Source of the DNA: Devosia sp. 2618
GTDB taxonomy: Bacteria > Pseudomonadota > Alphaproteobacteria > Rhizobiales > Devosiaceae
Assembly: GCF_040546815.1 (NCBI RefSeq)
Contig: NZ_JBEPOO010000001.1
Location: 2,914,001-2,978,000 of the forward strand
Length of the DNA stretch: 64,000 nucleotides
Reading direction: 5' to 3'
This document shows, piece by piece, positions 4,560 through 58,207 of the stretch. A model generated the notes under the pieces. That model worked only from the letters and a program-made list of their open reading frames with translations, made no database searches and had not been told where the DNA came from. Within the stretch, counting starts at the first letter, position 1. Every line of letters starts with the position of its first letter. A program made the position numbers and the translations under genes.

Positions 4560-6218
4560 GTGCTAAGAAACAAGTTGATCCTCGCCGCGTCAGCGGCGGT
4601 ATTGGCGATGGTGGCTCCGGCCGCCGCGCAGTCGGTTCTGACCGCGAGTTCGGAACAGACCACCACTTGGGTCCGCAATTTCAACCCGTTCCAGCAGACC
4701 TCGGCGCGCTACACGACGCTCGATTTCATCTACGAGCCGCTGGTGGTGTTCAACCGTCTGGCCGGCAATGAGCCGAACTTCCGTCTCGCTGAAAGCTACG
4801 AGCTGTCGGACGATCTTAAGTCGATCACCTTTGTGCTGCGCGATGGTCTGAAGTGGTCCGACGGCGAGGCGTTCACCGCCGACGACGTGCTGTTCACCTA
4901 TGACTATATCAAGAAGTTCCCAGCGCTCGATTTCATCTCGATCTCGGCACTGCTGGAGTCGGTTGAAAAGGTTGATGACCGCACGGTCCGCTTCCACCTG
5001 CTTGAGCCGAACTCGCTGATTGCCAACACCATTGTCGGCATGCCGATCGTGCCAGAGCACATCTGGTCGGGCATCACCGAGCCAGTGACTTTCGCCAACG
5101 AAAACCCCGTCGGTTCGGGTCCGCTGACCGAAATCACCCGTTTTACGCCGCAGGTTTACGAGCAGTGCCGCAACCCCAATTACTGGGATAACGCGACGCT
5201 GGCCGTCGACTGCATGCGCCTGCCACAACTTGCCGACAATCCGCAGGTGCTTGCCGCACTCGCCGAAGGCTCGCTTGATTGGGCCACGAGCTTTATCCCT
5301 GACATCGACAATACCTTTGTCGCCAAGGACCCAGAGCACAACAAATACTGGTTCACGCCATCGAGCCTGGTCTCGTTCTCGTTCAACCTCGAAACGGCTG
5401 ACGCGAACAACTCCAAGGCGTTCAACGACGTCCAGTTCCGCCGTGCGGTCAGCATGTTGATCGACCGCGAAACCATCGTCGACATCGCCGGTTATGGCTA
5501 TCCGCTGGTCAACGAAGATCCGTCCATGCTGGGCGAGCTGTATGCGTCCTTCGCCAACCCCGAAGTCGCGACCCAGTTCGGCCAGTATGGCAAGTTCGAC
5601 CTCGACGCCGGCATGGCCCTGCTCGACGAAGCTGGCTATGTCGACGCCAACAATGACGGCTTCCGCGACAATCCGGACGGCACGCCGATCACAATCGACA
5701 TCGAAGTTCCAAACGGCTGGACCGACTGGATCGATGCGGTGCAGATCGCCATGGAAACCATGCAGCAGGCTGGCCTCAACGTGAAGATGAGCACGCCGGA
5801 ATCGGCTGTGTGGACCTCGGACCTGATCGACGCCAAGTACTCGATGACGCTGAACTCACTGGCAGCGGCTGCGAACCCATACTTCCCCTACCGCCGTTCG
5901 TTCAATCCAGACGATTTCGGCAAGAGCCGCTTCTCGGCCCAGCGTTGGACCAATCCCGAAGTGATGGACCTGCTCGACAGCTATACGCAGAGCAAGGATC
6001 CGGCCGAACAGAAGACCATGATGGATCGTATTCAGCTGATCGTGGCTGAAAACCTGCCAGTCATTCCGATCTACAACAGCCCAGCTTTCTACCAGTACAG
6101 CACCAAGCGCTTTACCGGTTGGGCCGATGCGGAAAACCCCTTCGTTTCGCCGACCATCTCCAATGCCAATCCGGCCCGCCTGCTCCAGTTGCTGGCGCTG
6201 CGTCCGGTCGCTCAATAA
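4560..6218 (+). CDS. ABC importer periplasmic binding protein, Dpp/Opp family (SBP_bac_5)
   Basis: 552 residues starting with GTG at 4560, preceded by AAGGGAGACGAG. Residues 1-23 form a Sec signal peptide ending PAAA-Q. The mature part has the cluster-C features: NFNPFQQTSARYTTLDFIYE, SYELSDDLKSITFVLRDGLKWSDG, and SFNLETADANNSKAFNDVQF-type ligand loop with a VSMLIDRETIV helix. These proteins deliver peptides or oligosaccharides to an inner-membrane permease. It is encoded 31 bases after nagZ and before its own two permeases and two ATPases, so murein peptides or disaccharide-peptides are the likely cargo (inference). Confidence 0.9.
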   Translation: MLRNKLILAASAAVLAMVAPAAAQSVLTASSEQTTTWVRNFNPFQQTSARYTTLDFIYEPLVVFNRLAGNEPNFRLAESYELSDDLKSITFVLRDGLKWSDGEAFTADDVLFTYDYIKKFPALDFISISALLESVEKVDDRTVRFHLLEPNSLIANTIVGMPIVPEHIWSGITEPVTFANENPVGSGPLTEITRFTPQVYEQCRNPNYWDNATLAVDCMRLPQLADNPQVLAALAEGSLDWATSFIPDIDNTFVAKDPEHNKYWFTPSSLVSFSFNLETADANNSKAFNDVQFRRAVSMLIDRETIVDIAGYGYPLVNEDPSMLGELYASFANPEVATQFGQYGKFDLDAGMALLDEAGYVDANNDGFRDNPDGTPITIDIEVPNGWTDWIDAVQIAMETMQQAGLNVKMSTPESAVWTSDLIDAKYSMTLNSLAAAANPYFPYRRSFNPDDFGKSRFSAQRWTNPEVMDLLDSYTQSKDPAEQKTMMDRIQLIVAENLPVIPIYNSPAFYQYSTKRFTGWADAENPFVSPTISNANPARLLQLLALRPVAQ

Positions 6219-43671: not shown

Positions 43672-43753
43672 CGTCATTACCCGGCTTGTCCGGGTAATCC
43701 ATCTCTCCACAGTCGCTGACCCATGGATTGCCCGGACAAGCCGGGCAATGACG
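43672..43753. repeat. Palindromic repeat, type B, copy 1
   Basis: Left arm 43672-43702 (CGTCATTACCCGGCTTGTCC onward) and right arm 43723-43753 are reverse complements with few mismatches; each arm also folds on itself (CCCGG/CCGGG). A second member is at 52700-52784. Confidence 0.8.
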
Positions 43754-43798
43754 ATCGATTGGTTGTTTCGCCTGATAGAGTTGCTCCAGATGCAGCGC

Positions 43799-43924: not shown

Positions 43925-44125
43925 CCCCAAACCAACAACTTATCCCCGCACCCAAAACCGCGCGCATACTCCTCCCCGTTGCCCACGTCAGAGCCCAGTC
44001 ATGACGAGTGATGGTCGTGGGGATTGCCGGGGAGGAGGGGTCGCCTTCCTCGTGCGGGTTGGAAACACGGCAGCCGCGCCTGCAATAATGGTAGCGCCTG
44101 AACCGGACCTGTTCGAAATCCCGGT

Positions 44126-44186
44126 ATGGTGGCGAGGCAGCAGTCTCACTCCCAATACTAGATCGAGGCTGATGCCTCGCCACCAT
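44126..44186. repeat. Inverted repeat, type D
   Basis: ATGGTGGCGAGGCA (44126-44139) and TGCCTCGCCACCAT (44173-44186) form a perfect 14-bp stem around a 33-base spacer. It lies 44 bases beyond the phoR stop and may also help end that transcript. Confidence 0.75.
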
Positions 44187-44229
44187 CGCTCTACTTGAAA
44201 ACCGCATCACAGGCGGCGCTTTTGCACGC

Positions 44230-45513
44230 CTAAGGCAGAAACACATCCACCCGCATGCCCTCGCCGGGCTTGCTTTTGATCGTCAGCTGTCCGCGATGGC
44301 GGTTGACGATGTGCTTGACGATGGCCAGTCCGAGGCCCGTGCCTTTTTTCTTGCGGCTGGCGTCGGCGTCGATGCGGTAGAACCGCTCGGTCAGGCGCGG
44401 CACATGCTCCGGCTCCACGCCCGGACCATGGTCGACGATGGTCACCACATGCTGCAGGCCGGGCCGACCTGCGGGCGACAGGCTCACTTCGACAAACTTG
44501 CCGACAGCGCCATACTTGATGGCGTTTTCCATGAGGTTTTCGAACACTTCATAGAGCTGACCCCGGTCGCCGATGGTCGTGCTGGGACCGGCGAACATAT
44601 CCATGCGGATTTCGACATCGGCCGCTTTGGCCTGTGTCATCAGCCCTTCACGAACCTCGCGCAATAGGCCTGCCAGATCGATGCTACCGGTGGGGCGCAC
44701 ATGCTGATGCATTTCAATACGCGACAGGCTGAGCAGGTCATCGATCAGCTTGCTCATGCGTTCAGCCTGGCCGCGCATGATGCCGAGAAACTTTTCGCGC
44801 GCCACCGTGTCCTTGGCCGCGGGGCCGAGCAAGGTATCGATAAAGCCGAGCAACGAGGCGAGCGGCGTGCGCAGTTCATGGCTGGCATTGGCGATGAAGT
44901 CAGTGCGCAGGGCCTCGACGCGCTTGAGTTCGGTGAGGCTCTGGAACGTCACGACCAGTTGGCGGTCGTCAGCGCCCAGCCAGTCACGGCCGGGGCGGCG
45001 CAGCGGCGAGACCACGACGCGATCCCAGGTTTCGGACGGCACGGTCTCATGCAGCTCGATGGTGCGGGCAACGCCAGTGCGCATCACCAGATCGATGGCC
45101 TGCACCAATTCGGGGTTGCGCATGGAAAAGGTCAGCGGGTTGCTGTTGCTGATGGTCGGGAACTGCCGGCTGGCGGCGGCGTTGGCATGCTGCACGACAC
45201 TGCGGCGGTCAAGCACCAGGCAGGGGTCGACCAGCGCGTCGGCGAAAGCAAACACGGTTTCGTCGCCATCATCGGCAAGCAGGCCCGGCACATCCACCGT
45301 CTGGGCAACAGTGACGGCGCGCGTCGGCAAGATCGCGACGCCCACCACCATGACAAGCAGGCTAATCAGCGCGGCAACAATGTTGAGTTCACCGAAAATC
45401 ACCAGCGCCAGCAGCACGCCGCCAATGCCAGCCAGCACACCGGACTGCGCAACAATGCGGGCGATGCCGATGGACCGGGACGGCGCAGATCGGCTTATGT
45501 CAGGCTCGTCCAT
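44230..45513 (-). CDS. phoR: PhoR-like sensor histidine kinase
   Basis: 427 residues: two N-terminal helices (about 18-62), a PAS-like segment (DALVDPCLVLDRRSVV), then the dimerisation box SHELRTPLASLLGF (phospho-acceptor His near 211), N box ENAIKYG, G1 HGPGVE, F and G2 GTGLGLAIVKHI. The layout is that of PhoR, the phosphate-starvation kinase. No phoB or pst genes are in view; phoR is instead divergent from ppk2, a phosphate-storage enzyme. It may be an orphan kinase of another pathway, so the name is likely but not certain. Confidence 0.82.
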   Translation of the reverse strand: MDEPDISRSAPSRSIGIARIVAQSGVLAGIGGVLLALVIFGELNIVAALISLLVMVVGVAILPTRAVTVAQTVDVPGLLADDGDETVFAFADALVDPCLVLDRRSVVQHANAAASRQFPTISNSNPLTFSMRNPELVQAIDLVMRTGVARTIELHETVPSETWDRVVVSPLRRPGRDWLGADDRQLVVTFQSLTELKRVEALRTDFIANASHELRTPLASLLGFIDTLLGPAAKDTVAREKFLGIMRGQAERMSKLIDDLLSLSRIEMHQHVRPTGSIDLAGLLREVREGLMTQAKAADVEIRMDMFAGPSTTIGDRGQLYEVFENLMENAIKYGAVGKFVEVSLSPAGRPGLQHVVTIVDHGPGVEPEHVPRLTERFYRIDADASRKKKGTGLGLAIVKHIVNRHRGQLTIKSKPGEGMRVDVFLP

Positions 45514-45602
45514 GTTTTGCTTCTTGAAATCAGACAGTTGCGACGCCTCTTGCGCGCGGGGGCGCCTTCATAGCACGGTGAAGATGACAACGGAGAGACA
45601 GC

Positions 45603-46460
45603 ATGACCGACCCGCTTGATGGTTTCGACATTGAAAATCCAAAGCTGCCCAAGGCAATAAAGAAAAACGCCATGGCCTCTGGCGGCTATCCTTACGAGGA
45701 TAAGCTGGATAGCGAAATCTATGAAGCGCATATGTATGAGCTGCAAAAGCAGCTTGTGCTGTTGCAGGCCCACCTCGCCAAGACCGGCGAGCGCGTCATG
45801 GTGGTGTTTGAAGGCCGCGACGCTGCCGGCAAGGGCGGCACCATCAAGACCTATTTGGCAAACCTCAACCCGCGCTACAATCTGATCGCGGCCCTGCCCA
45901 AGCCCAACGATCGCGAACGCACGCAGTGGTATTTCCAGCGCTATGTCGACTGGCTACCCGCCGCTGGCGAAACGGTGCTGTTCGACCGCTCCTGGTACAA
46001 CCGGGCTGGCGTCGAACCCGTGATGGGCTTTTGCACGCCCGAACAGACTGAGCATTTCCTCGAAGAAGCCCCCGAGTTTGAAAAACGCCTGACGCGCGAC
46101 GGCATTCACCTGTTCAAGTTCTGGCTCTCCATCGGCCGCGAAATGCAGCTCAAACGGTTCCACGACCGTCGCCACGATCCGCTCAAGGTCTGGAAGCTCT
46201 CGCCCATCGACATCGAGGCGCTGAACAAATGGGACGCCTATAGCAAGGCCCGCGACGAGATGCTGTCGCGCACGGATACCCAATACGCGCCCTGGACGGT
46301 CATTCGCGCCAACGACAAGCGGCGTGGCCGGATAAATGTCATCCAGACGATGCTCGACAAGCTCGATTTCACCGGCAAGAGCAGCAAGGCCATTGGGGAT
46401 ATCGATCCCAATATCACGATGGCGGCTGCGGACTTTATGAAGTTGAGCAAGTCGGACTAG
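45603..46460 (+). CDS. ppk2: Polyphosphate kinase 2, class I
   Basis: 285 residues. Walker A EGRDAAGKGGT (70-80), Walker B FDRSWYNRAGVE (Asp128), lid module with R-rich KRFHDRRHDPLKVWKLSP. Single PPK2 domain of class I, which phosphorylates nucleoside diphosphates with polyphosphate (usually making GTP/ATP). ATG 45603 follows GGAGAGACAGC. It is 89 bases from the divergent phoR gene and 11 bases from the converging rpiR-type gene. Confidence 0.93.
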   Translation: MTDPLDGFDIENPKLPKAIKKNAMASGGYPYEDKLDSEIYEAHMYELQKQLVLLQAHLAKTGERVMVVFEGRDAAGKGGTIKTYLANLNPRYNLIAALPKPNDRERTQWYFQRYVDWLPAAGETVLFDRSWYNRAGVEPVMGFCTPEQTEHFLEEAPEFEKRLTRDGIHLFKFWLSIGREMQLKRFHDRRHDPLKVWKLSPIDIEALNKWDAYSKARDEMLSRTDTQYAPWTVIRANDKRRGRINVIQTMLDKLDFTGKSSKAIGDIDPNITMAAADFMKLSKSD

Positions 46461-46471
46461 GGGGGGCGCCC

Positions 46472-47308
46472 CTACTGCCCCTCAATCGCCCCCATCCGCT
46501 TGCTCGCCGTGGTCCACGCCAATTCCGTCGTGCGCGCAATGATGGCTTCCACCAATGTGAACAGCGAACCATTGGCGTCCCAGGTGCGGCCCATTTCAGT
46601 GCGGCAGGGCAAGACCAGTTTTGCGAAGCGGCTCACCGGGCTCATCCATTCATCGGTGATGAGCACGATATGCGCCCGGCGCGAAGCCAGCTCCGTCGCC
46701 ACATCGACAAGCTCGGCATCATAGCGCCGGACGTCAAAGATGATGGCTGTATCGCCCGGCCGCACGTCGATCAACTGGTCGGCCCGCGTCGCAGGACGAC
46801 CATCGAGTCGCCGAATGCCGGGTCGGATCAGGCGCAGATGGGCCTCCATATAACCGGCCAGAAAATCGGTGAAGCGACCGCCTGCAAGAAAACACGCGCC
46901 CTTGGCTTCCGCCAGACGCGCGCAGACCGCTTCAAACTCGGATGCCGGGATCAGGTCGGCGGTGTCGCGCAGGTTCTCGGTGGCTTGCGTGGCGAACCGA
47001 CCGAGAAAATTGTTATCACCATCGGCAACGCCGGCCGTAGAGTGGCTGCGCTGTAGCGGCGACTTGGACCGCTGCTCCAGTTCATCGCGCAGCGCCCGCT
47101 GAAAGTCTGGATAGGATTTGTAGCCGATCTGGGACACGAAGCGCAGCACGGTCGCCGAACTCGCACCGGCCTGCTGGCCAAACTCGGCGACAGGGGCCAG
47201 CCCCAGGGTTGGATAAGAACCGAGCAGTCCACGGGCCGCCCGTTTTTCCGCTGCAGTCAGGCGGTGAATGGCTTCGTGAATACGCCCCGCAACCGTCTTC
47301 CCTTCCAT
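46472..47308 (-). CDS. RpiR/MurR-family transcriptional regulator
   Basis: 278 residues. N-terminal HTH_6 domain (LTAAEKRAARGLLGSYP, then AGASSATVLRFVSQIGYKSY), C-terminal SIS domain (about 120-260; KGACFLAGGRFTDFLAGYME, GDTAIIFDVRRYDAELVD). RpiR regulators usually sense sugar phosphates with the SIS domain; here the gene is divergent from an amino-alcohol/polyamine-like catabolic operon, so the effector may differ. An imperfect inverted repeat lies in the 77-base gap between them. MurR, the repressor of murQ in E. coli, belongs to this family, but this gene is 26 kb from murQ. Confidence 0.85.
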   Translation of the reverse strand: MEGKTVAGRIHEAIHRLTAAEKRAARGLLGSYPTLGLAPVAEFGQQAGASSATVLRFVSQIGYKSYPDFQRALRDELEQRSKSPLQRSHSTAGVADGDNNFLGRFATQATENLRDTADLIPASEFEAVCARLAEAKGACFLAGGRFTDFLAGYMEAHLRLIRPGIRRLDGRPATRADQLIDVRPGDTAIIFDVRRYDAELVDVATELASRRAHIVLITDEWMSPVSRFAKLVLPCRTEMGRTWDANGSLFTLVEAIIARTTELAWTTASKRMGAIEGQ

Positions 47309-47322
47309 GCGCCCCCCTGAAT

Positions 47323-47374
47323 TTCTGATTTCAGTATTGACACTTTTGGCCAGTATGGAACTACTGATACAGAA
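47323..47374. promoter_or_regulatory. Candidate RpiR operator
   Basis: TTCTGATTTCAGTA (47323-47336) and TACTGATACAGAA (47362-47374) are near reverse complements, placed symmetrically in the 77-base divergent promoter of the RpiR gene and the amidohydrolase operon. AT-rich; likely bound by the RpiR protein. Confidence 0.5.
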
Positions 47375-47385
47375 GTTAACTGGTC

Positions 47386-48171
47386 ATGCGTAGGGGCAAA
47401 GTGGACGTTAGCGGTCAAAACTCGGTGCTTGTGTCCAATGCGCGGGGGCGTTCGCCCTTCGTGATCGTGTGCGACCATGCCAGCAACCGCATCCCCGCAA
47501 AATATGGCGACCTGGGCCTGACCGCCACTGAACGGCTCAGCCACATTGCCTGGGATCCGGGCGCGCTGGCAGTCAGCCGCGCGCTCTCGGACAGCCTCGA
47601 CGCGCCGCTGGTGCAGTCGACCGTTTCGCGCATCGTCATCGACTGCAATCGCGAGCTTGATGCGCCGGACCTGATCTGGACCCTGTCGGAATCGACCCGC
47701 ATCGCCGCCAATGAAAACCTCGATGCGGCCGAGCGCCAGTACCGCATCGATCACTTCCACCGCCCCTATCACGCCTCCATCGAGACGCTGCTCGAAGCGC
47801 GTCGGCATGCGGGGCAGGAAACGGTGCTGGTCTGCCTGCACTCCTTTACCCCGGTCTATCACGGCGTCGCCCGTCCCTGGCCAATCGGGCTGATCCACGG
47901 CGTCGACACCGGCTACACCAAGGCATTGTTCGATGCGCTCAAGGCCGATGATCCGACGCTCAATGTTGGCTGGAACGAGCCCTATGCGGCGCTCAATGGG
48001 GTAACGTTGACGCTTGAAAAACACGGTGACGGGCGCGGGCTCGAAGCCACCATGATCGAAATCCGGCACGACGAAATTCTTGAACCTACTGGCGTGACCC
48101 TTTGGGCAGACCGGTTGGCGCGTTGTCTGCAAACCGCGCGGGTCGCGCGCAAGAGGGCAATGGCAGTCTAG
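47386..48171 (+). CDS. N-formylglutamate amidohydrolase family protein
   Basis: 261 residues of the FGase (HutG-type metallo-amidohydrolase) family: VCDHASNRIP (zinc-site HASN, near 26-33), IDCNRELDAPD, CLHSFTPVY and GVDTGYT-type ligand regions. A GTG at 47401 with AGGGG four bases upstream may be the true start. No other histidine-degradation gene is present, so N-formylglutamate is an unlikely substrate. In this operon it could hydrolyse a gamma-glutamyl amide, for example gamma-glutamylglycine, releasing glutamate (inference). Confidence 0.85.
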   Translation: MRRGKVDVSGQNSVLVSNARGRSPFVIVCDHASNRIPAKYGDLGLTATERLSHIAWDPGALAVSRALSDSLDAPLVQSTVSRIVIDCNRELDAPDLIWTLSESTRIAANENLDAAERQYRIDHFHRPYHASIETLLEARRHAGQETVLVCLHSFTPVYHGVARPWPIGLIHGVDTGYTKALFDALKADDPTLNVGWNEPYAALNGVTLTLEKHGDGRGLEATMIEIRHDEILEPTGVTLWADRLARCLQTARVARKRAMAV

Positions 48172-48205
48172 ACTTCACTTGGGCTTCAATTCAGGGGACG
48201 TGACT

Positions 48206-49714
48206 ATGGCTGAGACCAAGAAGGTCGGCAGTGTCGCCTATGCGACACGCGACAAGGACTATTTCGAAAAACGTGGGCTGCAACGCTATGCCGGCATCTG
48301 GTCGCTATGGGCACTGGGCGTTGGCGCAGTGATTTCCGGCCACTTCTCTGGCTGGAATTTTGGCTTCATGACCGGCGGCTGGGGCGGCATGGTGGTCGCC
48401 GCCGGCATTATCGCCATCATGTATCTGGGCTTGGTCTCGTCCATCGCCGAAATGAGCCCCGCTTTGCCCCATACGGGTGCCGCCTATTCCTTCGCCCGCA
48501 CATCGATGGGGCCATGGGGCGGCTTCGTCACCGGGCTGTTCGAGAACGTCGAATATGTGCTCACCCCGGCGGTGATCTGTACCTTCATCTCGGGCTACTT
48601 CGGCTCGATCACCGGGCTCGATACGGCCTATTACCCGATCCTCTGGGTGGTGTTCTTCGCCCTGTTCCTCGCGCTCAATATTTTTGGTGTGGCGCTTAGC
48701 TACAAGGTGACGCTCACTGTCACGCTGATCTCGCTGGCAGGTCTGGTGTTCTTCTGGTTCAGCGCCTTCCCGCATATCGATTTCTCGCGCTGGGCGCTCA
48801 ATATCGGCGTTGGGCCGGATGGCGCGGCTGTCGAACTGCCGGAAGGCAATGGTTCGTGGTTCCCCTTTGGCTGGCAGGGCGTGTTGTCCACCCTGCCCTT
48901 CGCGGTCTGGCTGTTCCTTGCCATCGAGCAGGTGCCGCTGGCGGCCGAAGAATCCGTTGACCCCAAGCGCGACATGCCACGCGGCATTCTACTCGGCTTC
49001 TGCACACTGTTGCTCAGCGCCTTCATGATCGTGTTGCTCAACCCATCCATCGCCGGCGTCGGTGCGTTCAGCCTCGGCTCATCGCTTGAGCCTGCGCTGC
49101 AGGGTATCCGCGCCATCTATGGCGATGCGGCCGCTCCTGTCTTTGGCGTCGTGGCGCTGATCGGTCTGATCGCCTCGTTCCACACCATCCTCTATGCGCA
49201 GGGCCGTCAGGTCTATTCGCTGAGCCGCGCTGGCTACTTCCCATCTGCGCTGTCGGTCACCCATCCCAAGTACAAGACACCGCATATCGCGATGGTCTCG
49301 GGTGCTCTGCTGGGTCTGGCCGTGATGCTCATCATCTGGTTTGCCAATGGTGGCGGCGGCGATGGCGCTGATCAGCTGGGCGATGACATCATCGGCTCGG
49401 TGCTCCTCAACATGGCCGTGTTCGGCGCGATGCTGAGCTACATCATGCAGGCCCTGAGCTTTATCATCCTGCGCCGCAACCTGCCCAATATCGAGCGGCC
49501 ATTCCGTTCGCCCGTCGGCATTCCTGGCGCCGTTCTGACCATCATCATTGCGGCCGTGACCTTGTTCTACCAGCTGCAGGATCCGAACTTTTACAAGGGC
49601 GTGATCTGGGTGGTGCTGTGGTGCGCCGTCGGCATCGTCTATTTCGCCGCGATCGGTCGCCACAAGCTGATCATGTCGCCTGAAGAAGAGTTTGCGCTCG
49701 AAAACAAGGCGTAA
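48206..49714 (+). CDS. APC-superfamily permease, ethanolamine-permease type
   Basis: 502 residues, twelve helices, from the ATG at 48206 (MAETKKVGSVAY; GGGG nine bases upstream). The GxG-x-x-x-S-G of helix 1 (GVGAVISGHFSGWNFG), SSIAEMSPALPHTGAAYSFA in helices 2-3 and LAIEQVPLAAEES in helix 6 match the ethanolamine permease (Eat) branch of the APC family. It would bring ethanolamine or a related amine into the cell. Two hairpins (49727-49747 and 49785-49800) separate it from the ligase gene. Confidence 0.85.
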   Translation: MAETKKVGSVAYATRDKDYFEKRGLQRYAGIWSLWALGVGAVISGHFSGWNFGFMTGGWGGMVVAAGIIAIMYLGLVSSIAEMSPALPHTGAAYSFARTSMGPWGGFVTGLFENVEYVLTPAVICTFISGYFGSITGLDTAYYPILWVVFFALFLALNIFGVALSYKVTLTVTLISLAGLVFFWFSAFPHIDFSRWALNIGVGPDGAAVELPEGNGSWFPFGWQGVLSTLPFAVWLFLAIEQVPLAAEESVDPKRDMPRGILLGFCTLLLSAFMIVLLNPSIAGVGAFSLGSSLEPALQGIRAIYGDAAAPVFGVVALIGLIASFHTILYAQGRQVYSLSRAGYFPSALSVTHPKYKTPHIAMVSGALLGLAVMLIIWFANGGGGDGADQLGDDIIGSVLLNMAVFGAMLSYIMQALSFIILRRNLPNIERPFRSPVGIPGAVLTIIIAAVTLFYQLQDPNFYKGVIWVVLWCAVGIVYFAAIGRHKLIMSPEEEFALENKA

Positions 49715-49726
49715 GAACAAACAGGT

Positions 49727-49800
49727 TGTCCGGCCCCGCGCCGGACAGCCATCCTCCTTCGGCGTGGTTCCTGCGGAGACGGGAATGTCCTGCCGGACAT
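49727..49800 (+). promoter_or_regulatory. Two intercistronic hairpins between permease and ligase genes
   Basis: TGTCCGGC/GCCGGACA at 49727-49747 (8 bp, loop CCCGC) and ATGTCC/GGACAT at 49785-49800. No U-tract after either. They may tune the ratio of membrane permease to cytoplasmic ligase. Confidence 0.5.
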
Positions 49801-49837
49801 TGGGGGAACGACGCAGTGATACTTGGAGGAAACACTG

Positions 49838-51199
49838 ATGGCCTACTCTCTTGCCGAGCTGAAAAAAGACGTCGCAGCCGGGTCAATCGACACCGTGCTG
49901 GTCGCCTTCCCTGACATGCAGGGGCGAATGATCGGCAAGCGCTTTCAGGCTGAGTATTTCCTCGAAGTGGCCAATGACGAAACCCACGGCTGCGACTATC
50001 TGCTGGCCGACGATATCGATATGGAGCCGGTGCCCGGCTACGACGCCGCCAATTGGGGCAAGGGCTATGGCGACTTCGTCATGAAGCCCGACCTGACCAC
50101 GCTGATGAAAGCGACCTGGCTTGAGGGTACCGCCATCGTTCTGTGTGACCTCTCCGACCACCACCATCACGAGCCGGTGCCACATAGCCCGCGCGCCATT
50201 CTCAAGCGTCAGCTCGAGCGCCTCGCCAAGCTTGGCTACACGGCAAATGTTGCCACAGAACTTGAGTTCTACCTGTTCGACGATGACTACCGCACCGTCC
50301 ACCAGAAGGGCCATCGCAACCTGCAGCCGGCAGGCGACTACATTCAGGACTACAATATTTTCCAGACCACCAAGGAAGAAGGCGTGATGCGCGCGCTGCG
50401 CAAGCATCTGCAGGCGTCGGGCATTCCGGTGGAATCCTCCAAAGGCGAGTGGGGCCCGGGGCAGGAAGAGATCAACGTCAAATATGCCGATGCGCTGACC
50501 ATGGCTGACCGCCACGTGGTCCTTAAGAACGCCACTAAGGAAATCGCCTACGCGCAGGGCAAGTCGGTCACCTTCATGGCCAAATGGGACTATGCGCTGG
50601 CTGGTTCGTCGAGCCACATCCACATGTCGCTGGCCGACAAGGCGGGGAAACCGCTTTTCGTCGGTGACAAAGACGAGCGCGGCATGAGCGATCTGATGAA
50701 GCATTTCATGGCAGGGCAGCTCGCCTATGCCCGCGAGATCACCTATTTTCTCGCCCCCTATATCAATAGTTACAAGCGCTTCCAGGCCGGCACTTTTGCG
50801 CCGACCAAGGCGATCTGGTCGCCGGACAACCGCACCGCTGGCTTCCGCCTTTGCGGCGAGCATTCCAAATCCATCCGCGTCGAATGCCGCATGGGCGGCG
50901 CTGACCTCAATCCCTATCTGGCCATTGCGGCACTGATCGCCGCTGGCATTGAGGGCATCGAGGAAAAGCTGCCGCTCGAACCAGCTTTCGTCGGCGACGC
51001 ATACATCACCGAAAAGTTGCGCGAGATTCCCAAGACGCTGCGCGAAGCCACCGACACGCTGCGCAACTCGGCAATGCTCAAGGATGCGTTCGGCGAGCAG
51101 GTCGTCAGCCATTATGTGCACACCGCCGAATGGGAACAGCTCGAATATGATCGCCGTGTCACCGACTGGGAACTCAAGCGCGGTTTCGAGCGGAGCTAG
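49838..51199 (+). CDS. Glutamine synthetase-like gamma-glutamyl ligase
   Basis: 453 residues from the ATG at 49838 with GGAGGA seven bases upstream. Catalytic glutamate/metal motifs of the GS fold are present: TELEFYLFDDD (near 139-149), GPGQEEINVKYADA, AGSSSHIHMSL (ATP/metal His), NSYKRFQAGTFAPT and RVECRMGGADLNPYLAIA. The adenylylation motif NLYDLPP of true GlnA is missing, so it is not the main ammonia-assimilating enzyme. Relatives are PuuA, IpuC and Streptomyces GlnA4, which glutamylate putrescine, isopropylamine/alaninol and ethanolamine. Context favours ethanolamine or another amino alcohol. Confidence 0.87.
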   Translation: MAYSLAELKKDVAAGSIDTVLVAFPDMQGRMIGKRFQAEYFLEVANDETHGCDYLLADDIDMEPVPGYDAANWGKGYGDFVMKPDLTTLMKATWLEGTAIVLCDLSDHHHHEPVPHSPRAILKRQLERLAKLGYTANVATELEFYLFDDDYRTVHQKGHRNLQPAGDYIQDYNIFQTTKEEGVMRALRKHLQASGIPVESSKGEWGPGQEEINVKYADALTMADRHVVLKNATKEIAYAQGKSVTFMAKWDYALAGSSSHIHMSLADKAGKPLFVGDKDERGMSDLMKHFMAGQLAYAREITYFLAPYINSYKRFQAGTFAPTKAIWSPDNRTAGFRLCGEHSKSIRVECRMGGADLNPYLAIAALIAAGIEGIEEKLPLEPAFVGDAYITEKLREIPKTLREATDTLRNSAMLKDAFGEQVVSHYVHTAEWEQLEYDRRVTDWELKRGFERS

Positions 51200-51291
51200 C
51201 CAGATTGCTGCCGCACTGATCGACCACTACTAGCTGCACAACCATCCATGACCTGCGTCCTTTTCGCGGCCAAGAACACGAGGACTTCTCG

Positions 51292-52674
51292 ATGACCGAA
51301 ACGGTCAAGATCATCTCCCCCATCGACGGCAGCGTCTATGCCGAACGCCCCCTGGCTACCGGGCAGCAAATCGACAGTGCCGTTCTCAACGCCAAGGCAG
51401 CGCGCCGGGCGTGGGGCGAGACGACCATCGCCGAGCGGCAGAAAATCCTGACGCATTTCGTCGATGCGCTGCTGTTGATGAACGATGACATTGTGCCCGA
51501 ACTGGCCTGGCAGATGGGCCGTCCGGTCCGTTTTGGCGGCGAGAAGCGTGGCGTCGAAGAGCGCGCGCGCTATATGATCGAACTGGCTGCCGAGGCTCTG
51601 GCGCCGTCGATCAAACCTGAGAAAGAAGGCTTCACCCGCTACATCACCCGCGAGGCGCTCGGCACCGTCATGGTAATCGCGCCATGGAACTATCCGTTCC
51701 TCACCGCGGTCAACTCCATCGTTCCGGGTCTGATGGCGGGCAATGCCATCATCCTCAAACACGCTAGCCAGACGCTGCTGGCCGGTGAGCGTTTCGCCGC
51801 CGCTGCCGAAAGCGCCGGCCTGCCATCCGGGCTGTTCCAGAATCTGGTCCTTGGCCACGCCGATACCGAAAAGCTGATCGGTTCAGGGCAGATCGACCAC
51901 ATCAATTTCACCGGCTCGGTCGAAGGCGGCCGCCGCATCGAAAAGGCCGCAGCTGGCACCTTTGCTACTCTCGGCCTCGAACTTGGCGGCAAGGATCCGG
52001 CCTATGTCCGGGCCGACGCAAATCTTGAAAACGCCGTCGAAAACCTCGTCGATGGCTCGTTCTTCAATTCCGGTCAAAGCTGCTGCGGCGTCGAGCGCAT
52101 TTATGTGCATGAAAGCGTCTACGGCAATTTTGTCGAACGCTTCATCGACAATGCCAAGGGCTGGACGCTGGGCAATCCGCTTGATGCCGACACAATCGTC
52201 GGCCCGATGGCGCGCGGCAATTTTGCTGACCATGTGCGCCAACAGACCGCCGAAGCCCTGCGGGGTGGCGCGACCCGACATCTCAATACCAAGCATGAAC
52301 TCGACAAAGCCGGCTCGCCCTATCTGGCGCCTGAGGTGCTGACGAACGTCAACCACCAGATGTCGATCATGCGCGAAGAGAGCTTTGGCCCCGTCGTCGG
52401 CATCATGAAAGTGGCCGACGATGCGGAAGCGATGACGCTGATGAACGACAGCCCCTATGGGCTCACTGCCTCGATCTGGACCGACGACCTCGACGCTGCG
52501 GCCAAGCTTGGTGGGCAGATCGAAACCGGCACCGTGTTTGCCAATCGCTGTGATTATCTCGATCCGGCGCTGGTCTGGACCGGGGTCAAAGACACTGGCA
52601 AGGGCGGCGGGCTGAGCGAGATCGGCTATGCGAATTTGACCCAGCCCAAAAGCTATCATTTGAAGCGGATTTAA
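51292..52674 (+). CDS. NAD-dependent aldehyde dehydrogenase
   Basis: 460 residues. Cofactor strand WNYPFLTAVNSIVPGLMAGN, active-site Glu in ELGGKDPAYV (near 232) and catalytic Cys in FFNSGQSCCGVER (near 263). Then EESFGPVVGIMKV and the C-terminal KGGGLSEIGY. In the proposed pathway it oxidises gamma-glutamyl-aminoaldehyde to the acid, parallel to PuuC. 92 bases after the ligase gene, with no visible terminator. Confidence 0.9.
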   Translation: MTETVKIISPIDGSVYAERPLATGQQIDSAVLNAKAARRAWGETTIAERQKILTHFVDALLLMNDDIVPELAWQMGRPVRFGGEKRGVEERARYMIELAAEALAPSIKPEKEGFTRYITREALGTVMVIAPWNYPFLTAVNSIVPGLMAGNAIILKHASQTLLAGERFAAAAESAGLPSGLFQNLVLGHADTEKLIGSGQIDHINFTGSVEGGRRIEKAAAGTFATLGLELGGKDPAYVRADANLENAVENLVDGSFFNSGQSCCGVERIYVHESVYGNFVERFIDNAKGWTLGNPLDADTIVGPMARGNFADHVRQQTAEALRGGATRHLNTKHELDKAGSPYLAPEVLTNVNHQMSIMREESFGPVVGIMKVADDAEAMTLMNDSPYGLTASIWTDDLDAAAKLGGQIETGTVFANRCDYLDPALVWTGVKDTGKGGGLSEIGYANLTQPKSYHLKRI

Positions 52675-52699
52675 TTCGGGAAACCGATCACTCCCCCAT

Positions 52700-52784
52700 C
52701 GTCACCACCGGGCCTGTCCCGGTGGTCCATGCCACCGCCGGCGCGAAGCCGCGATGGATTGCCGGGACAAGCCCGGCAATGACG
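52700..52784. repeat. Palindromic repeat, type B, copy 2
   Basis: Arms 52700-52730 and 52754-52784 are imperfect reverse complements, each with an internal CCGGG/CCCGG palindrome. Same family as 43672-43753. It fills the 152-base gap between the aldehyde and alcohol dehydrogenase genes. Confidence 0.8.
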
Positions 52785-52826
52785 CTGGTGGGAAGTTAAG
52801 AAGCCGAACCGAACAACGAGGCCACA

Positions 52827-53981
52827 ATGACCAAAGCCAACTGGAACTACCCGACCGCCATCAAGTTCGGTCCCGGCCGTATCGCCGAGCTACCCGAAGC
52901 GCTCAAGACGGCCGGGATTTCACGGCCGCTGCTCGTCACCGATGCGGGGTTGGTCAACCTGCCGGTGACGCAGAACACCATTGCCCTGCTCAAGGCCGCG
53001 GGCGTCCCGGTCGGCGTGTTCGCCGATGTCAAACCCAACCCGATTTCGGCCAATGTCGAAGCCGGCATTCGCGTATTGCGCGAAGGCGGCCATGACGGTG
53101 TGATCGCCTTTGGCGGCGGTTCGGGGCTCGATGTGGGCAAGGTCATCGCCTTCATGGCTGGCCAGACCCGCCCGATGTGGGATTTCGAAGATATCGGCGA
53201 CTGGTGGACCCGCGCCGATCCTGCAGGCATTTTCCCGATTGTCGCCGTGCCGACCACGGCGGGCACTGGCTCAGAAGTGGGCCGCGCGGGCGTCATCACT
53301 GACGAGACGACCCACACCAAGAAAGTCATCTTCCATCCGCTGATGATGCCAAAGGTGGTCATCGTCGATCCTGAACTCACCGTCGGGATGCCCAAATTCA
53401 TCACCGTTGGCACCGGCATGGACGCGCTGGCGCATTGCCTCGAAGCCTATTGCGCGCCGGGCTATCATCCAATGGCGGACGGCATTGCGGTCGAGGGCAT
53501 TCGCCTGGTGTTTGAGAACCTGCCTAAAGTTTATGCTAACCCAAACGATGTCGAAGCGCGCGGCCACATGATGAGCGCCGCCGCCATGGGCGCCACCGCG
53601 TTCCAGAAAGGCCTTGGCGCCATTCACGCACTGAGCCATCCCGTCGGCGCGCTTTATGACACTCATCACGGCATGACCAATGCCGTGTTCATGCCCTATG
53701 TGCTGGTGGTCAATCGTCCGGCCATCGAAGCGCGCATCGCGCGGCTGGCAGCTTATCTTGGCCTCGCGCCGAGCTTTGAGGCATTCCTCCACGCCGTCAC
53801 CGCGCTGCGCCTGCGATTGGACGTGCCGCATACCTTGGCTGAGTTCAAGGTGGATGGGAGCAAGCGCGAATTGATCGGAGACATGGCAATTGTCGACCCG
53901 ACAGCCGGTGGCAATCCGGTGGAATTGACCAAGGAACGGGCGCTCGAGATCTTTGATCGGGCGATGGAAGGGCGGGTTTAG
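52827..53981 (+). CDS. Iron-containing alcohol dehydrogenase
   Basis: 384 residues. NAD-binding FGGGSGLDVGKVIAF (near 96-110), PTTAGTGSEVGRAGVITDE, and the iron ligands in GMDALAHCLEAY and HALSHPVGALYDTHHG (H-x3-H and H). ATG 52827 lies in AACGAGGCCACA context. In the operon it could oxidise the free hydroxyl of a gamma-glutamylated amino alcohol to an aldehyde, the step performed by an amine oxidase (PuuB) in the putrescine pathway, which is missing here. Confidence 0.9.
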   Translation: MTKANWNYPTAIKFGPGRIAELPEALKTAGISRPLLVTDAGLVNLPVTQNTIALLKAAGVPVGVFADVKPNPISANVEAGIRVLREGGHDGVIAFGGGSGLDVGKVIAFMAGQTRPMWDFEDIGDWWTRADPAGIFPIVAVPTTAGTGSEVGRAGVITDETTHTKKVIFHPLMMPKVVIVDPELTVGMPKFITVGTGMDALAHCLEAYCAPGYHPMADGIAVEGIRLVFENLPKVYANPNDVEARGHMMSAAAMGATAFQKGLGAIHALSHPVGALYDTHHGMTNAVFMPYVLVVNRPAIEARIARLAAYLGLAPSFEAFLHAVTALRLRLDVPHTLAEFKVDGSKRELIGDMAIVDPTAGGNPVELTKERALEIFDRAMEGRV

Positions 53982-53990
53982 GCGAAGAGT

Positions 53991-54035
53991 ACCCCACCTA
54001 GCCTCACCCCTGAAAAGGGGGAGGCTAGGTGGGGT
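53991..54035. terminator. Strong bidirectional hairpin between convergent genes
   Basis: ACCCCACCTAGCCTC (53991-54005) and GAGGCTAGGTGGGGT (54021-54035), a perfect 15-bp stem, extended inside by CCCC/GGGG. It separates the alcohol dehydrogenase from the converging oxidoreductase. The word AGGGGATACCCC next to a CCTC-rich stem recurs at 56600-56639, so it is also a repeat family. Confidence 0.75.
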
Positions 54036-54040
54036 ATCCC

Positions 54041-55510
54041 CTAAGCAGCAACTACCTCTGCCACAGCTTCCTTCACCCCAATCTCGAGCAGACTATCGAG
54101 ATGGGTCGCCACGGCCTCGCCGAACGCCTGGTTTTCAGCCAGATCGGTGCCGAACACCTCGGTCAGGCCCGCCAGCCCGATATAGAGCTCCTCGGCGTCA
54201 TCGCCTGCATCTGCGGCAATCGCCAGCATGCGCATAGCCAGCGGATCGCGCACGTCGATCTCGTCGCCGTTCTCGTCGATGCCCATGACATAACGCATCC
54301 AACCGGCGACACCGAGCGCAAGGCGGTCGAACGGCTGATCGGCATTGAGACGATTGCGGATGGTGCCGAGCAGGCGCTGGGGCAGTTTTTGGCTGCCGTC
54401 CATGGCGATCTGCCAGGTGCGATGCTGTAGCGCTGGATTGCGGAAACGGTTGAGCAACTGATCGCGATAGGCACCGAGGTCAACGCCGGGCATATCCAGC
54501 GTTGGCATAGCTTCTTCGGTCATGAGGTCGTGGATCAGTGTGACGAAGTTTTCGTCTGCCATGACGTCGGAAATGTATTCATAGCCAGACAGATAGCCGA
54601 GGTAGGCCATGGTCGAATGGCTGCCGTTGAGCATGCGCAGCTTCATGCGCTCGAACGGCTCGACGTCCTTGACCAGCTGCGCCCCGGCCTTTTCGAACGG
54701 CGGACGGCCCTGCGGGAAGTCATCCTCGATAACCCATTGGGTAAAGGGCTCGGTCATGATCGGCCAGGCATCGTCGACGCCGGTCAGGTCGGCAATCGTC
54801 GTGCGGTCGGCATCGGTCGTGGAGGGTACGATGCGGTCGACCATGGTGCCCGGGAACGCGACTTCGGCCACCCATTCGCCCAGCGCTGCATCGCGCAGGC
54901 TGGCAAACTTGGTGACGATGCGCTTCACGGTCGCGCCATTGGACGGCAGGTTATCGCAGCTCATCACCGCGAACGGAGCAATGCCTGCGGCTTTGCGGCG
55001 CGCCAACGCCTCGACAATCATGCCGGGAGCCGAATGTGGTTCGGTCGGGTTGGCCAGATCGTGGACGATGTCGGGATGGCGCTGATCGAGCTCGCCGGTT
55101 GCCGGATCGTGGCAGTAGCCCTTTTCCGTCACCGTCAGCGAAACGATCCGAATGGCAGGGCTGGCCATCAGCGACAGCAGTTCTTCACGCTGCGTATTGG
55201 CGTCGAGCACCTTGAGGATCGAGCCGATAATGCGCGGATGAGTGCCGGAGGCATCGCGCACGGCTACTGTGTAGAGACCGTCCTGCGGCTCAAGCGCCTC
55301 CTTGGTGTCCGGACGACGGAGGCTGGCGCCGACGATGGCCCAATCGGGATTGTCCTTGAGCAGGTCGTCGACATAGACCGCCATATGCGCGCGATGGAAG
55401 GCGCCAATACCCAGATGCACGATGCCAGCAGTGACCTTGGTCCGGTCGTAGTTGGGCACGGCAACACCGGTGGGGGCGTTGGCAAGAATGGCGGCGCTGA
55501 GGCGCGTCAT
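54041..55510 (-). CDS. Mannitol dehydrogenase family oxidoreductase (fructuronate reductase-like)
   Basis: 489 residues from the ATG at 55510 with GGAGA six bases upstream. Rossmann start GIVHLGIGAFHRAHMAVY (near 28-45), the catalytic-region Lys in VEPFERMKLRMLNGSHS and the C-terminal helical domain define the long-chain mannitol dehydrogenase/UxuB family. Candidates are D-fructuronate reductase and mannitol 2-dehydrogenase. Divergent from a KDG-kinase-like gene, which favours a uronate pathway. UxuA and transporters are not in view. Confidence 0.88.
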   Translation of the reverse strand: MTRLSAAILANAPTGVAVPNYDRTKVTAGIVHLGIGAFHRAHMAVYVDDLLKDNPDWAIVGASLRRPDTKEALEPQDGLYTVAVRDASGTHPRIIGSILKVLDANTQREELLSLMASPAIRIVSLTVTEKGYCHDPATGELDQRHPDIVHDLANPTEPHSAPGMIVEALARRKAAGIAPFAVMSCDNLPSNGATVKRIVTKFASLRDAALGEWVAEVAFPGTMVDRIVPSTTDADRTTIADLTGVDDAWPIMTEPFTQWVIEDDFPQGRPPFEKAGAQLVKDVEPFERMKLRMLNGSHSTMAYLGYLSGYEYISDVMADENFVTLIHDLMTEEAMPTLDMPGVDLGAYRDQLLNRFRNPALQHRTWQIAMDGSQKLPQRLLGTIRNRLNADQPFDRLALGVAGWMRYVMGIDENGDEIDVRDPLAMRMLAIAADAGDDAEELYIGLAGLTEVFGTDLAENQAFGEAVATHLDSLLEIGVKEAVAEVVAA

Positions 55511-55552
55511 GGGAGTCTCCGACTTGAAAATCGTGGGCAGCATAGTGCCTTC

Positions 55553-55572
55553 CTATCTTGTATGGAAGATAG
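55553..55572. promoter_or_regulatory. Palindromic operator between oxidoreductase and sugar kinase genes
   Basis: CTATCTT (55553-55559) and AAGATAG (55566-55572), spacer GTATGG, with CTTCC/GGAAG nested. It sits 43-62 bases upstream of the oxidoreductase start in the 179-base divergent promoter. A FadR/UxuR-type GntR regulator site is plausible; no such regulator gene is nearby. Confidence 0.55.
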
Positions 55573-55689
55573 TGGCTTGCGGCGAATTGGGCTTTACCGG
55601 CATAAGCCATGAGCGTTTGCAGTAAAAGTGGCTACCGGTTTTTCGTTCGCAAACGCGTCTAGGACTGGCACGCAAGGCAGGAGATGTGT

Positions 55690-56601
55690 TTGGCACAGCA
55701 GCGCTTCGTCAGCATCGGGGAATGCATGATCGAAATGAGTGGCGGCGAAGATCGCCAATACCGGCTTGGCTATGCGGGTGATACGCTCAACACCGCCTGG
55801 TATATGCGCGCACTGCTCGGTGAGGATTGGTCGGTAGACTATTACACAGGCCTGGGCGAAGATCGCTATTCGGGCGATATCCGTCAGTTCCTCGATGACA
55901 ACAATATCGGCACCAGCCATATCCGCACCGTGCCCGGCCGCCGCCCTGGCCTTTACATGATCCATCAGCAAGACGGTGACCGCCACTTCACCTATTGGCG
56001 CGATACGTCCGCTGCCAAACTTTTGGCCGATGACAAGGATGCGCTGGCAGCCGCGGTCAAGGGGGCGAGCGTGGTGTATTTCTCGGGTATTACCCTCGCC
56101 ATTCTGACGCCACGGGCGCGTGGCCGGTTGCTCGGCGCCATCGTCAAGGCGCGCGATGCCGGTGCACGGATCGTGTTCGACACCAATATCCGCCCTGCCC
56201 TGTGGACCAGCCCGCGCGTTATGACGGCCGTGCTGACGGCTGCAGCGACGCTGTGTGATGTGGTTCTGCCGACCCATAGCGATGAAGCACCGCTGTTTGG
56301 CGACAAGTCGGTTGATGACACAGCCGACCGCTATCTCGAACTGGGTGTCGAGGAAGTGGTGGTCAAGGATGGTGCTGGCGAAGCGCTCATTGCCACGGCG
56401 AGCGAGCGGGTAAGGGTTGCGCCCAAGCCCGGTGCGACGGTGGTCGATGCGACGGGCGCCGGCGACAGTTTTAACGGGGCGTATCTGTCGGCACGGTTGG
56501 CGGGCAAGTCACTGCAGGAGGCGGCGGAAGCGGCGCACCGGGTGGCTGGGGTCGTGATCGGGCAGAAGGGTGCGTTGGTCGATCCGAAGTTGTTGGTTTA
56601 G
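55690..56601 (+). CDS. PfkB-family sugar kinase (2-keto-3-deoxygluconate kinase-like)
   Basis: 303 residues if it starts at TTG 55690, where AGGAG lies six bases upstream; the ATG at 55684 would abut the ribosome site. RFVSIGECMIEMSGG start, GYAGDTLNTAWYM (near 25-37), YWRDTSAAKLL (near 106) and the PfkB signature DATGAGDSFNGAY with catalytic Asp. The pattern fits KdgK, making KDPG for the Entner-Doudoroff pathway, which suits the divergent fructuronate-reductase-like gene. Confidence 0.85.
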   Translation: MAQQRFVSIGECMIEMSGGEDRQYRLGYAGDTLNTAWYMRALLGEDWSVDYYTGLGEDRYSGDIRQFLDDNNIGTSHIRTVPGRRPGLYMIHQQDGDRHFTYWRDTSAAKLLADDKDALAAAVKGASVVYFSGITLAILTPRARGRLLGAIVKARDAGARIVFDTNIRPALWTSPRVMTAVLTAAATLCDVVLPTHSDEAPLFGDKSVDDTADRYLELGVEEVVVKDGAGEALIATASERVRVAPKPGATVVDATGAGDSFNGAYLSARLAGKSLQEAAEAAHRVAGVVIGQKGALVDPKLLV

Positions 56602-56639
56602 GGGATACCCCCACCTCGCCTCCCCCTGATAGGGGGAGG
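56600..56639. repeat. Hairpin repeat after sugar kinase gene
   Basis: AGGGGATACCCCC overlaps the kinase stop; CCTCCCCCT (56619-56627), loop GAT, AGGGGGAGG (56631-56639). Related to 53991-54040. It may also terminate the kinase transcript. Confidence 0.65.
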
Positions 56640-56684
56640 AATCCGGGCGGTGTGTTCGGTATAATCTCGCGCACCCACCGCCCC

Positions 56685-57230
56685 TTAAAACGCCCGGTCG
56701 CCCTGCTCTACCATATAGGCCAATTCCTCGGCAGTGCTCTCGCGGCCCAGCGCCTTGTTCCGGAACGGGAACCGCCCGAACCGCGCGACTGTGTCGCGGT
56801 GGCCGGTCATGAAATCGAGAAGGAAAGCATCGTTCAGCGCTGCGAACAGGCGCACGCCGTCATCCTGCACTTTCAGCGATTCCGCATGCATGAAGGGCAT
56901 GTAGAAGAACATGCGCCACTTGGCATCCACCGCCTGGTCTGCTCCGGCGGTGATCGCTTCCTGCGCCAATGCCGTTGCCATTGTGTCCTGCGCAAAAGCC
57001 TTGGCAGAGTTGCGATGCAGCTGACGTGAAAACTGATCGAGCACGATGAGTTCGGCCAGCCGCCCTTCGGCGGTCTTGCGCCAATCCCAGGCTTCGCCCA
57101 GCGCGACTTTGGGATGGGTATCGGCAAAGCGTTCAGCAAGCGCGGCATCGAATTCGGGCTTGCCGCCGAACCAGTCATCCATGCCGTGGTCGACAAACCA
57201 GAATGTGATGATGTCCTGAGCTGTGCGCAT
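56685..57230 (-). CDS. DUF924 family protein
   Basis: 181 residues. The family pattern is clear: DIITFWF start, WFGGKPEFDAALAERF, LAELIVLDQFSRQLHRNSAKAFAQD and FFYMPFMHAESL. All-helical TPR-like fold, cytoplasmic, function unknown. Stand-alone gene. Confidence 0.92.
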   Translation of the reverse strand: MRTAQDIITFWFVDHGMDDWFGGKPEFDAALAERFADTHPKVALGEAWDWRKTAEGRLAELIVLDQFSRQLHRNSAKAFAQDTMATALAQEAITAGADQAVDAKWRMFFYMPFMHAESLKVQDDGVRLFAALNDAFLLDFMTGHRDTVARFGRFPFRNKALGRESTAEELAYMVEQGDRAF

Positions 57231-57286
57231 GAAAAAGTCCTCCTATCGATGTGACAGGAGGACTAACGCGTTCTGCGGTGCAAAGG

Positions 57287-58207
57287 CTAGGCCAGGATGA
57301 TCTTGATGCGGTTGCCAGACGGGTCCTGCGTCTCGATGCCGCCGTCGATGGGCGTCACGGCGGCATTGGCATTGACCAGTCGGGTTTTGACGCCGTCGAG
57401 CGTGGCGGCATCGGGCAGCACGATGGTGAACCAGCGCAGGCCGGCGGACCCGGCCACGGGCAGGCTGGCGTTGGGGCCAGACCAGATGTTGAAGGCGATG
57501 GTGTGGGGCATGTAGTCGAGCCCCACATCGCCCATGCCGAACGAGTCGATGAGCAGGAACCCGGCAAAACCAAGCACGTCGCGATAGAACTCCATCGACT
57601 GGCGCAGGTCTTTGACATGGACATGCACGTGCCCGATCCGCGTGCCTTCAGGCATGCGGGGGACGATTACGGGCGCAGGCCCCAGTTCGGCAAGCAGGCC
57701 ATCGAGATCGATTGGGTCGCGACCCGAGTGACGCTTGCCATCGACGGTGATCGCGTAGGTTTCCCCCTTGTCGGGATCACCCAACCGGCCGCGCCAAGGC
57801 GTCTCAAAGGTGATTTCAATGCCATTGCCATCAAGATCCCACAGGTAGATGGCTTCGCTGACAAGGTGATCGGTCGGCGAAATTCGGACATTACGCTGCA
57901 TGGCCCGAACCGCCAGCTGGGCCATATCGACCCGTTTGGGCACGTGGACAGCAACGTGATAGAGCCCGATCGTGTGCTGCTGACTCGGGCGGGTCGCGCC
58001 CGTTTCGAGTACGATCAGCGGCTTGCCGCCTGCGCCGAGGGTCAACTCGTTGCCGGTTTCAGAGATGATGTCGAGGCCAACCACGTCCTGCCAGATGGCG
58101 AGGGCCTTGGCGCGGTCGGTCACCGCGATATGGACGGTACCCAGCTTCGTGGTCAGGGGCAGGATGGGGGCCGATTTGACGTTGGTCTGGACGGAGGTAT
58201 CAATCAT
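57287..58207 (-). CDS. Double VOC-domain protein (catechol 2,3-dioxygenase-like)
   Basis: 306 residues with two glyoxalase/VOC modules (about 18-135 and 168-300): TVHIAVTDRAKALAIWQDVV and GHVHVHVKDLRQSMEFYRDV begin the modules; HVAVHVPKR, WDLDGNGIEI, IGHVHVHV and QDPSGNRIKI supply the metal-ligand positions. Resembles CatE-type extradiol dioxygenases and related proteins of unknown substrate. No aromatic-degradation genes are nearby. Confidence 0.87.
   Translation of the reverse strand: MIDTSVQTNVKSAPILPLTTKLGTVHIAVTDRAKALAIWQDVVGLDIISETGNELTLGAGGKPLIVLETGATRPSQQHTIGLYHVAVHVPKRVDMAQLAVRAMQRNVRISPTDHLVSEAIYLWDLDGNGIEITFETPWRGRLGDPDKGETYAITVDGKRHSGRDPIDLDGLLAELGPAPVIVPRMPEGTRIGHVHVHVKDLRQSMEFYRDVLGFAGFLLIDSFGMGDVGLDYMPHTIAFNIWSGPNASLPVAGSAGLRWFTIVLPDAATLDGVKTRLVNANAAVTPIDGGIETQDPSGNRIKIILA

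Follow-up and report, generated by a model that had tools for sequence, protein, structure and literature searches.

We analysed a 64,000-nucleotide stretch of the genome of Devosia sp. 2618 (the window), in which a six-gene locus at 46472-53981 forms a candidate operon for the use of ethanolamine. A gene for an RpiR-family regulator on the minus strand is divergent from five plus-strand genes encoding an FGase-family amidohydrolase, an APC-superfamily permease, a glutamine synthetase (GS)-like ligase, an aldehyde dehydrogenase (ALDH) and an iron-containing alcohol dehydrogenase (Fe-ADH), and all six frames are open and intact (Table 1). The Pfam matches of all six genes exceeded the gathering score, and the coordinates and gene calls of a preliminary description of this DNA, including the divergent RpiR gene, were correct by open reading frames (ORFs) and Pfam. 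For the permease and the ligase we took the first ATG as the start; the ORF list starts both at TTG.

Table 1. Genes and intergenic region of the candidate operon, with positions in the window.
Feature	Position	Strand	Evidence
RpiR-family transcriptional regulator	46472..47308	-	HTH_6 31.4 bits and SIS 53.5 bits (Pfam)
Divergent intergenic region, 77 bp	47309..47385	.	Contains TTGACA and the pair TCAGTA...TACTGA (pair spotted by eye)
FGase-family amidohydrolase, proposed gamma-glutamylglycine amidohydrolase	47386..48171	+	FGase PF05013 147.4 bits
APC-superfamily permease, ethanolamine-permease-like, proposed ethanolamine uptake	48206..49714	+	AA_permease_2 120.3 bits; TIGR00908 331.2 bits
GS-like ligase, proposed ethanolamine gamma-glutamylase	49838..51199	+	Gln-synt_C 343.7 bits
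Aldehyde dehydrogenase, proposed gamma-glutamylacetaldehyde dehydrogenase	51292..52674	+	Aldedh 390.7 bits
Iron-containing alcohol dehydrogenase, proposed gamma-glutamylethanolamide dehydrogenase	52827..53981	+	Fe-ADH 169.5 bits, ADH_Fe_C 149.4 bits

Predicted pathway and family evidence

The cluster is very probably an ethanolamine-utilization operon of the published gamma-glutamylation type, with its reactions, substrate and regulation inferred from sequence comparison. The permease would import ethanolamine, and the ligase, using ATP, would join it to glutamate as gamma-glutamylethanolamide. With the amine masked, the iron alcohol dehydrogenase would then convert the hydroxyl to an aldehyde, from which the aldehyde dehydrogenase would produce gamma-glutamylglycine, and the FGase-family amidohydrolase would free glycine together with a reusable glutamate. 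RpiR presumably regulates the operon, and the glycine cleavage system could consume the glycine.

These steps for ethanolamine were printed in 2019, 2022 and 2023 (PMC6529630, PMC9397018, PMC10132767). The four families that the 2022 review tabulates for the pathway, PF00120, PF00465, PF00171 and PF05013 (PMC9397018), are all present in the cluster. The preliminary description had given each enzyme one step, an assignment that matches the published route with substrate specificity still predicted, and had offered the logic of the operon as its own; the logic is very probably right, but its novelty does not stand, because it is already in the three papers. A first reading from raw sequence had thereby recovered a real, published pathway.

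The ligase was compared with solved protein chains. It scored 677.4 bits against 11zs and 566.2 bits against 5dm3, to which it is 57% identical, and scores then dropped to 177.7 bits among the other 36 chains listed. We take 5dm3 to be a C. salexigens protein. These scores, from a comparison with solved chains, place the ligase in a putative ethanolamine gamma-glutamylase group. Glu141, Glu143, Glu204, Glu211, His260 and Glu349, presumably the metal ligands of the GS fold, are invariant in a ten-sequence alignment.

The FGase-family protein is not HutG (TIGR02017, 32.8 bits against a cut-off of 278.75), and its single match to a solved structure at an E value of 0.001 was 2odf, Atu2144 (169.9 bits). 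No NCBIfam match of the ALDH reached its own cut-off among the 25 of 44 matches listed, nor did any of the 16 matches of the Fe-ADH.

We also searched the genome of the strain for the other known route. EutB and EutC gave no match at an E value of 0.001, and bacterial microcompartment (BMC) shell proteins gave none either, the E. coli positive control matching each time, which fits the earlier label of a pathway independent of B12 and microcompartments. GcvP was found (389.2 bits), so glycine could be used.

Conservation of the gene cluster

To describe the neighbourhood of the ligase elsewhere, we used the best 80 of 592 confirmed stretches around ligase relatives; all 80 ligases share 64% identity or more, which makes the survey one of close relatives. 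We judged the 68 loci in which the ligase match lay at position 6000 or later and was followed by no less than about 3.6 kb, and detected neighbours by tblastn (E value 1e-10, more than half of the query). Fe-ADH was found in 65 of these 68 loci, ALDH in 62 (in one case as a 33% match on the opposite strand), FGase in 47 and RpiR in 42. The preliminary description had proposed a search for the same gene set in other genomes, and the set is indeed co-conserved: 11 of the 68 loci have the window's exact order with the same permease type. Another 12 carry a TRAP transporter in place of the permease, and 18 have the series RpiR-FGase-ligase-ALDH-Fe-ADH with neither transporter query matching. Apart from loci with a reduced gene set, weighed below, the remaining orders account for 12. 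The cluster exceeds a chance neighbourhood.

In 17 of the 18 unmatched loci an open frame of 512-576 residues occupies the gap between FGase and ligase; L090 yielded no more than a short frame there. We classified six of the 18, and all matched TIGR00907 best, under its cut-off. The same was true of L038, of S. meliloti L114 and of a permease downstream in L045. L045 and similar loci have ligase, ALDH and Fe-ADH, with FGase and RpiR not detected in the locus survey.

At an E value of 1e-60 the ligase was found in 22 of 36 other same-genus genomes and in 36 of 61 relatives (own genome counted; one only 34% identical), and at 1e-120 in 42 of 385 genomes of the class (own counted). The named loci and the same-genus genomes overlap, so the two surveys are not independent. 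In L159 a ligase 34% identical to that of the window stands beside ALDH and Fe-ADH relatives at 56% identity, a set that might apply this chemistry to a different amino alcohol.

Directly upstream of the operon lie genes for a PhoR-like kinase (44230-45513, minus strand; 279.8 bits against a cut-off of 334.2) and a PPK2 polyphosphate kinase (45603-46460, plus strand). Of the 22 other same-genus genomes with the ligase, 14 share this upstream pair, and 4 more have one or both of the kinase genes on the downstream side of the operon.

Variation at the transporter position

Fifteen of these 22 genomes carry an APC permease and six a TRAP set (L133, L134, L135, L141, L144, L145), with neither in L146; a third permease query had no match in any of the 22. 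In L133 and L135 the TRAP genes occupy the window's own site, with PhoR-PPK2 on one side and, on the other, a fructuronate-reductase-like gene and behind it a PfkB-family kinase gene. On either flank the DNA of these two loci is about 80-83% similar to that of the window; the similarity breaks off at 48141 and 48122 and picks up again at 49865 and 49841. The breakpoints flank the transporter, and thus little beyond the permease gene and a spacer differs. Among further Devosia loci, L036 has TRAP genes at the same site, and in L038 a TIGR00907-type permease lies next to PhoR-PPK2 on a contig that ends soon after the ligase.

We then compared the distances of each gene with those of the ligase. 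Across the 16 APC genomes (window counted), the permease distances did not track those of the ligase (rho -0.08, a value reached in 638 of 1000 permutations), whereas the distances of FGase, ALDH, Fe-ADH and PPK2 in the same genomes, and of RpiR in 10 genomes, did (rho 0.72-0.88; 0 of 1000). When L125 and L127, whose permeases diverge most, were dropped, the permease gave a rho of 0.03 (393 of 1000 permutations as high), and without L142 and L143 as well it gave 0.20 (115 of 1000), with ALDH, Fe-ADH and FGase then at 0.73-0.80 (at most 1 of 1000). The contrast between permease and enzymes persists, weaker, after these genomes are dropped. In the six TRAP genomes the binding protein (rho 0.10) and the large permease (-0.16) did not follow the ligase, and FGase (0.22) and Fe-ADH (0.07) failed likewise; because these genomes give no clear result, the case for exchange is drawn from the APC genomes and from the DNA breakpoints.

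Different transporters at one site are thus observed directly, and on balance we favour the reading that the transporter position is an exchange site, in which an APC, TRAP or TIGR00907-type transporter fills one slot by PhoR-PPK2, the swap being made gene for gene against a jointly inherited background of regulator, enzymes and flanks. If this is true, uptake could be exchanged or adjusted separately from a conserved catabolic core, and these operons form a natural series for asking why the transporter changes while the enzymes stay. Our literature search, with most subscription journals outside it, found no description of transporter exchange for the ethanolamine gamma-glutamylation operon. 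We regard the exchange as a modest new observation, by which Devosia adds a genus that pairs one catabolic core with different uptake systems.

Substrate and alternative explanations

The TRAP versions also bear on the substrate. TRAP binding proteins from Devosia crocina (L042) and Paracoccus scored 459 and 567 bits against 4UAB, which is Csal_0678 with ethanolamine bound, the ligand residue being Glu220 (PMC12410723). The nearest glutamate in the 4UAB chain numbering is 217, which is conserved in the D. crocina protein and which we assumed to be residue 220. A TRAP partner of ethanolamine-binding type beside close relatives of the window's enzymes supports ethanolamine as the probable substrate of the APC version, a reading made firmer by this pairing but not proven by it. 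The strain's own genome has no close relative of EtoX, the TRAP ethanolamine-binding protein of Phaeobacter (Kd for ethanolamine about 7.9 uM; PMC10132767), its best match being 26% identical.

Several points weigh against the assignment to ethanolamine. The TRAP genomes are relatives and not the strain of the window, and the window's permease falls below the cut-off of 381.75 bits of the ethanolamine permease model TIGR00908. Other GS-like ligases use other amines, such as 1-naphthylamine and putrescine, and papers differ on the C. salexigens pathway, demonstrated according to one (PMC10132767) and predicted in silico according to another (PMC6529630). Ligase, ALDH and Fe-ADH alone were detected in 15 of the 68 judged loci. 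Among nine annotated plasmid regions around ligase relatives (Embleya L122 has no annotation), FGase, ALDH and Fe-ADH occur together in four (L112, L113, L114, L117), and the other five (L115, L116, L118, L119, L123; ligases 39-58% identical) have no annotated FGase or Fe-ADH. An annotated dehydrogenase, apparently of short-chain type, is present in L115, L118, L119 and L123, and L116 (58% identical) has neither an annotated ALDH nor an annotated Fe-ADH. Since L116 is about as distant from the window's ligase as 5dm3 is, such a relative can occupy another context, and more distant ligase relatives may do other things.

These points leave some room for an operon that breaks down a different small amino alcohol, such as L-alaninol, serinol or 3-aminopropanol, through identical chemistry, with ethanolamine minor or unused. 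The enzyme logic suits any primary amino alcohol, the permease score and the varied substrates of GS-like ligases in glutamylation pathways fit it, and it gains slightly from the plasmid regions without the full gene set. We nevertheless consider it unlikely, as close enzyme relatives in the same genus accompany a Csal_0678-type ethanolamine-binding TRAP protein and published relatives are linked to ethanolamine.

It is very unlikely that the ligase makes glutamine or gamma-glutamylmethylamide beside unrelated neighbours. The ligase does belong to the GS catalytic-domain family, but it falls under the curated cut-offs for type I (245.2 against 429.15 bits) and type III GS (248.9 against 469.6), and its neighbours are conserved with it across genera. 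The one other match to it in the genome, 38% identical over residues 191-410, could be the ordinary GS.

Least probable of all is a Puu-type pathway for putrescine or another polyamine: a GS-like gamma-glutamylation ligase near an amino acid permease and an ALDH would suggest one, but the ligase scored 196.6 bits against the 650 required by the gamma-glutamylputrescine synthetase model and the ALDH 210.9 against 850 for PuuC, and a Fe-ADH is present. The Puu pathway employs an amine oxidase; the preliminary description had noted its absence and the alcohol dehydrogenase in its place, and by Pfam this holds among the six genes, the rest of the genome not having been searched. The polyamine and plain GS readings were both rejected on curated cut-offs.

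Other features of the locus and of plasmid relatives

The 12-mer TACAGAAGTTAA of the 77-bp intergenic region was found in 12 of 23 compared sequences (window counted). A scripted inverted-repeat search of that region (arms of 6-8, spacer of at most 11) printed none, and an Rfam scan of 44000-57500 found nothing that reached the gathering thresholds. The window holds two copies of a palindromic intergenic repeat, at 52755-52785 between ALDH and Fe-ADH and at 43724-43754; the second copy carries 3 mismatches, and shuffled sequences gave a mean expectation of 0.00. Behind the Fe-ADH stop, at 53990-54036, lies an inverted repeat whose arms are 15 bases long; no T run comes after it.

On plasmid pAA03 of Aminobacter aminovorans (L117, 5181-15348), typed as conjugative, an operon copy that lacks a transporter gene adjoins bhcR and bhcABC of the beta-hydroxyaspartate cycle, a possible outlet for glycine via glyoxylate. 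Ligases 49-52% identical to that of the window occur in Allomeiothermus (L118, 6962-10531), Thermomicrobium (L115, 6974-10725) and Arthrobacter (L123, 6959-11260). In all three the annotation shows no Fe-ADH, and the ligase is accompanied by a gene labelled glucose 1-dehydrogenase or 3-oxoacyl-ACP reductase; L115 also has an annotated ethanolamine permease and L123 a gamma-glutamyl-GABA hydrolase family gene. In Paraburkholderia phymatum pBPHY02 (L116, 880-8359) the ligase stands beside a gamma-glutamyl-GABA hydrolase family gene, a LysE family translocator and pyridoxal phosphate (PLP)-type enzymes, perhaps a different use of gamma-glutamylation.

Comparison with known systems

The Eut pathway (EutBC, with or without a microcompartment) has the use of ethanolamine in common with the proposed pathway and differs by its ethanolamine ammonia lyase, a B12-dependent enzyme. 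The Puu pathway for putrescine shares the strategy of gamma-glutamylation, with the window's ligase and ALDH far under the Puu model cut-offs.

Closer in chemistry is S. coelicolor, in which GlnA4 (SCO1613) was shown to be a gamma-glutamylethanolamide synthetase, with the later steps predicted, including an FGase-family amidohydrolase (PMC6529630). The source thereby states what the preliminary description had said of Streptomyces GlnA4. Together with SCO1611, SCO1612 and SCO1615, GlnA4 resembles the window's set in combining a GS-like ethanolamine ligase, two predicted dehydrogenases and the predicted amidohydrolase. Unlike the window, S. coelicolor has the regulator EpuRI (SCO1614), so RpiR is not universal, and it has no specific ethanolamine permease (PMC6529630).

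In Phaeobacter MED193, GGAH, EtoX, ETAGA, GAADDH and GETADH increase during growth on phosphorylethanolamine, and the locus-tag series runs RpiR, GGAH, EtoVWX (TRAP), ETAGA, GAADDH, GETADH; they are close relatives of the genes demonstrated for C. salexigens and Agrobacterium tumefaciens C58 (PMC10132767). The regulator family, the four enzyme functions and the gene series by locus tag are alike, but the transporter is of TRAP type in Phaeobacter and an APC permease in the window, and the Phaeobacter series is known by locus tags, not strands. In Paracoccus, as in the window, RpiR is divergent.

The window operon is a further example of an already published pathway, and the pathway itself is not new. 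Its APC version also occurs outside this genome, for example in Agrobacterium (L101, L105). In S. meliloti Ak57 a divergent RpiR gene on pSymB (L114) is likewise followed by FGase, permease, GS-like ligase, ALDH and Fe-ADH, but the permease there matches TIGR00907 best (211.5 bits, under the cut-off) and not TIGR00908. In A. tumefaciens MEJ076 (L105) the divergent RpiR, FGase, permease, GS-like ligase, ALDH and Fe-ADH genes stand in the same order as in the window, and the permease is of the window's own type, with 78% identity.

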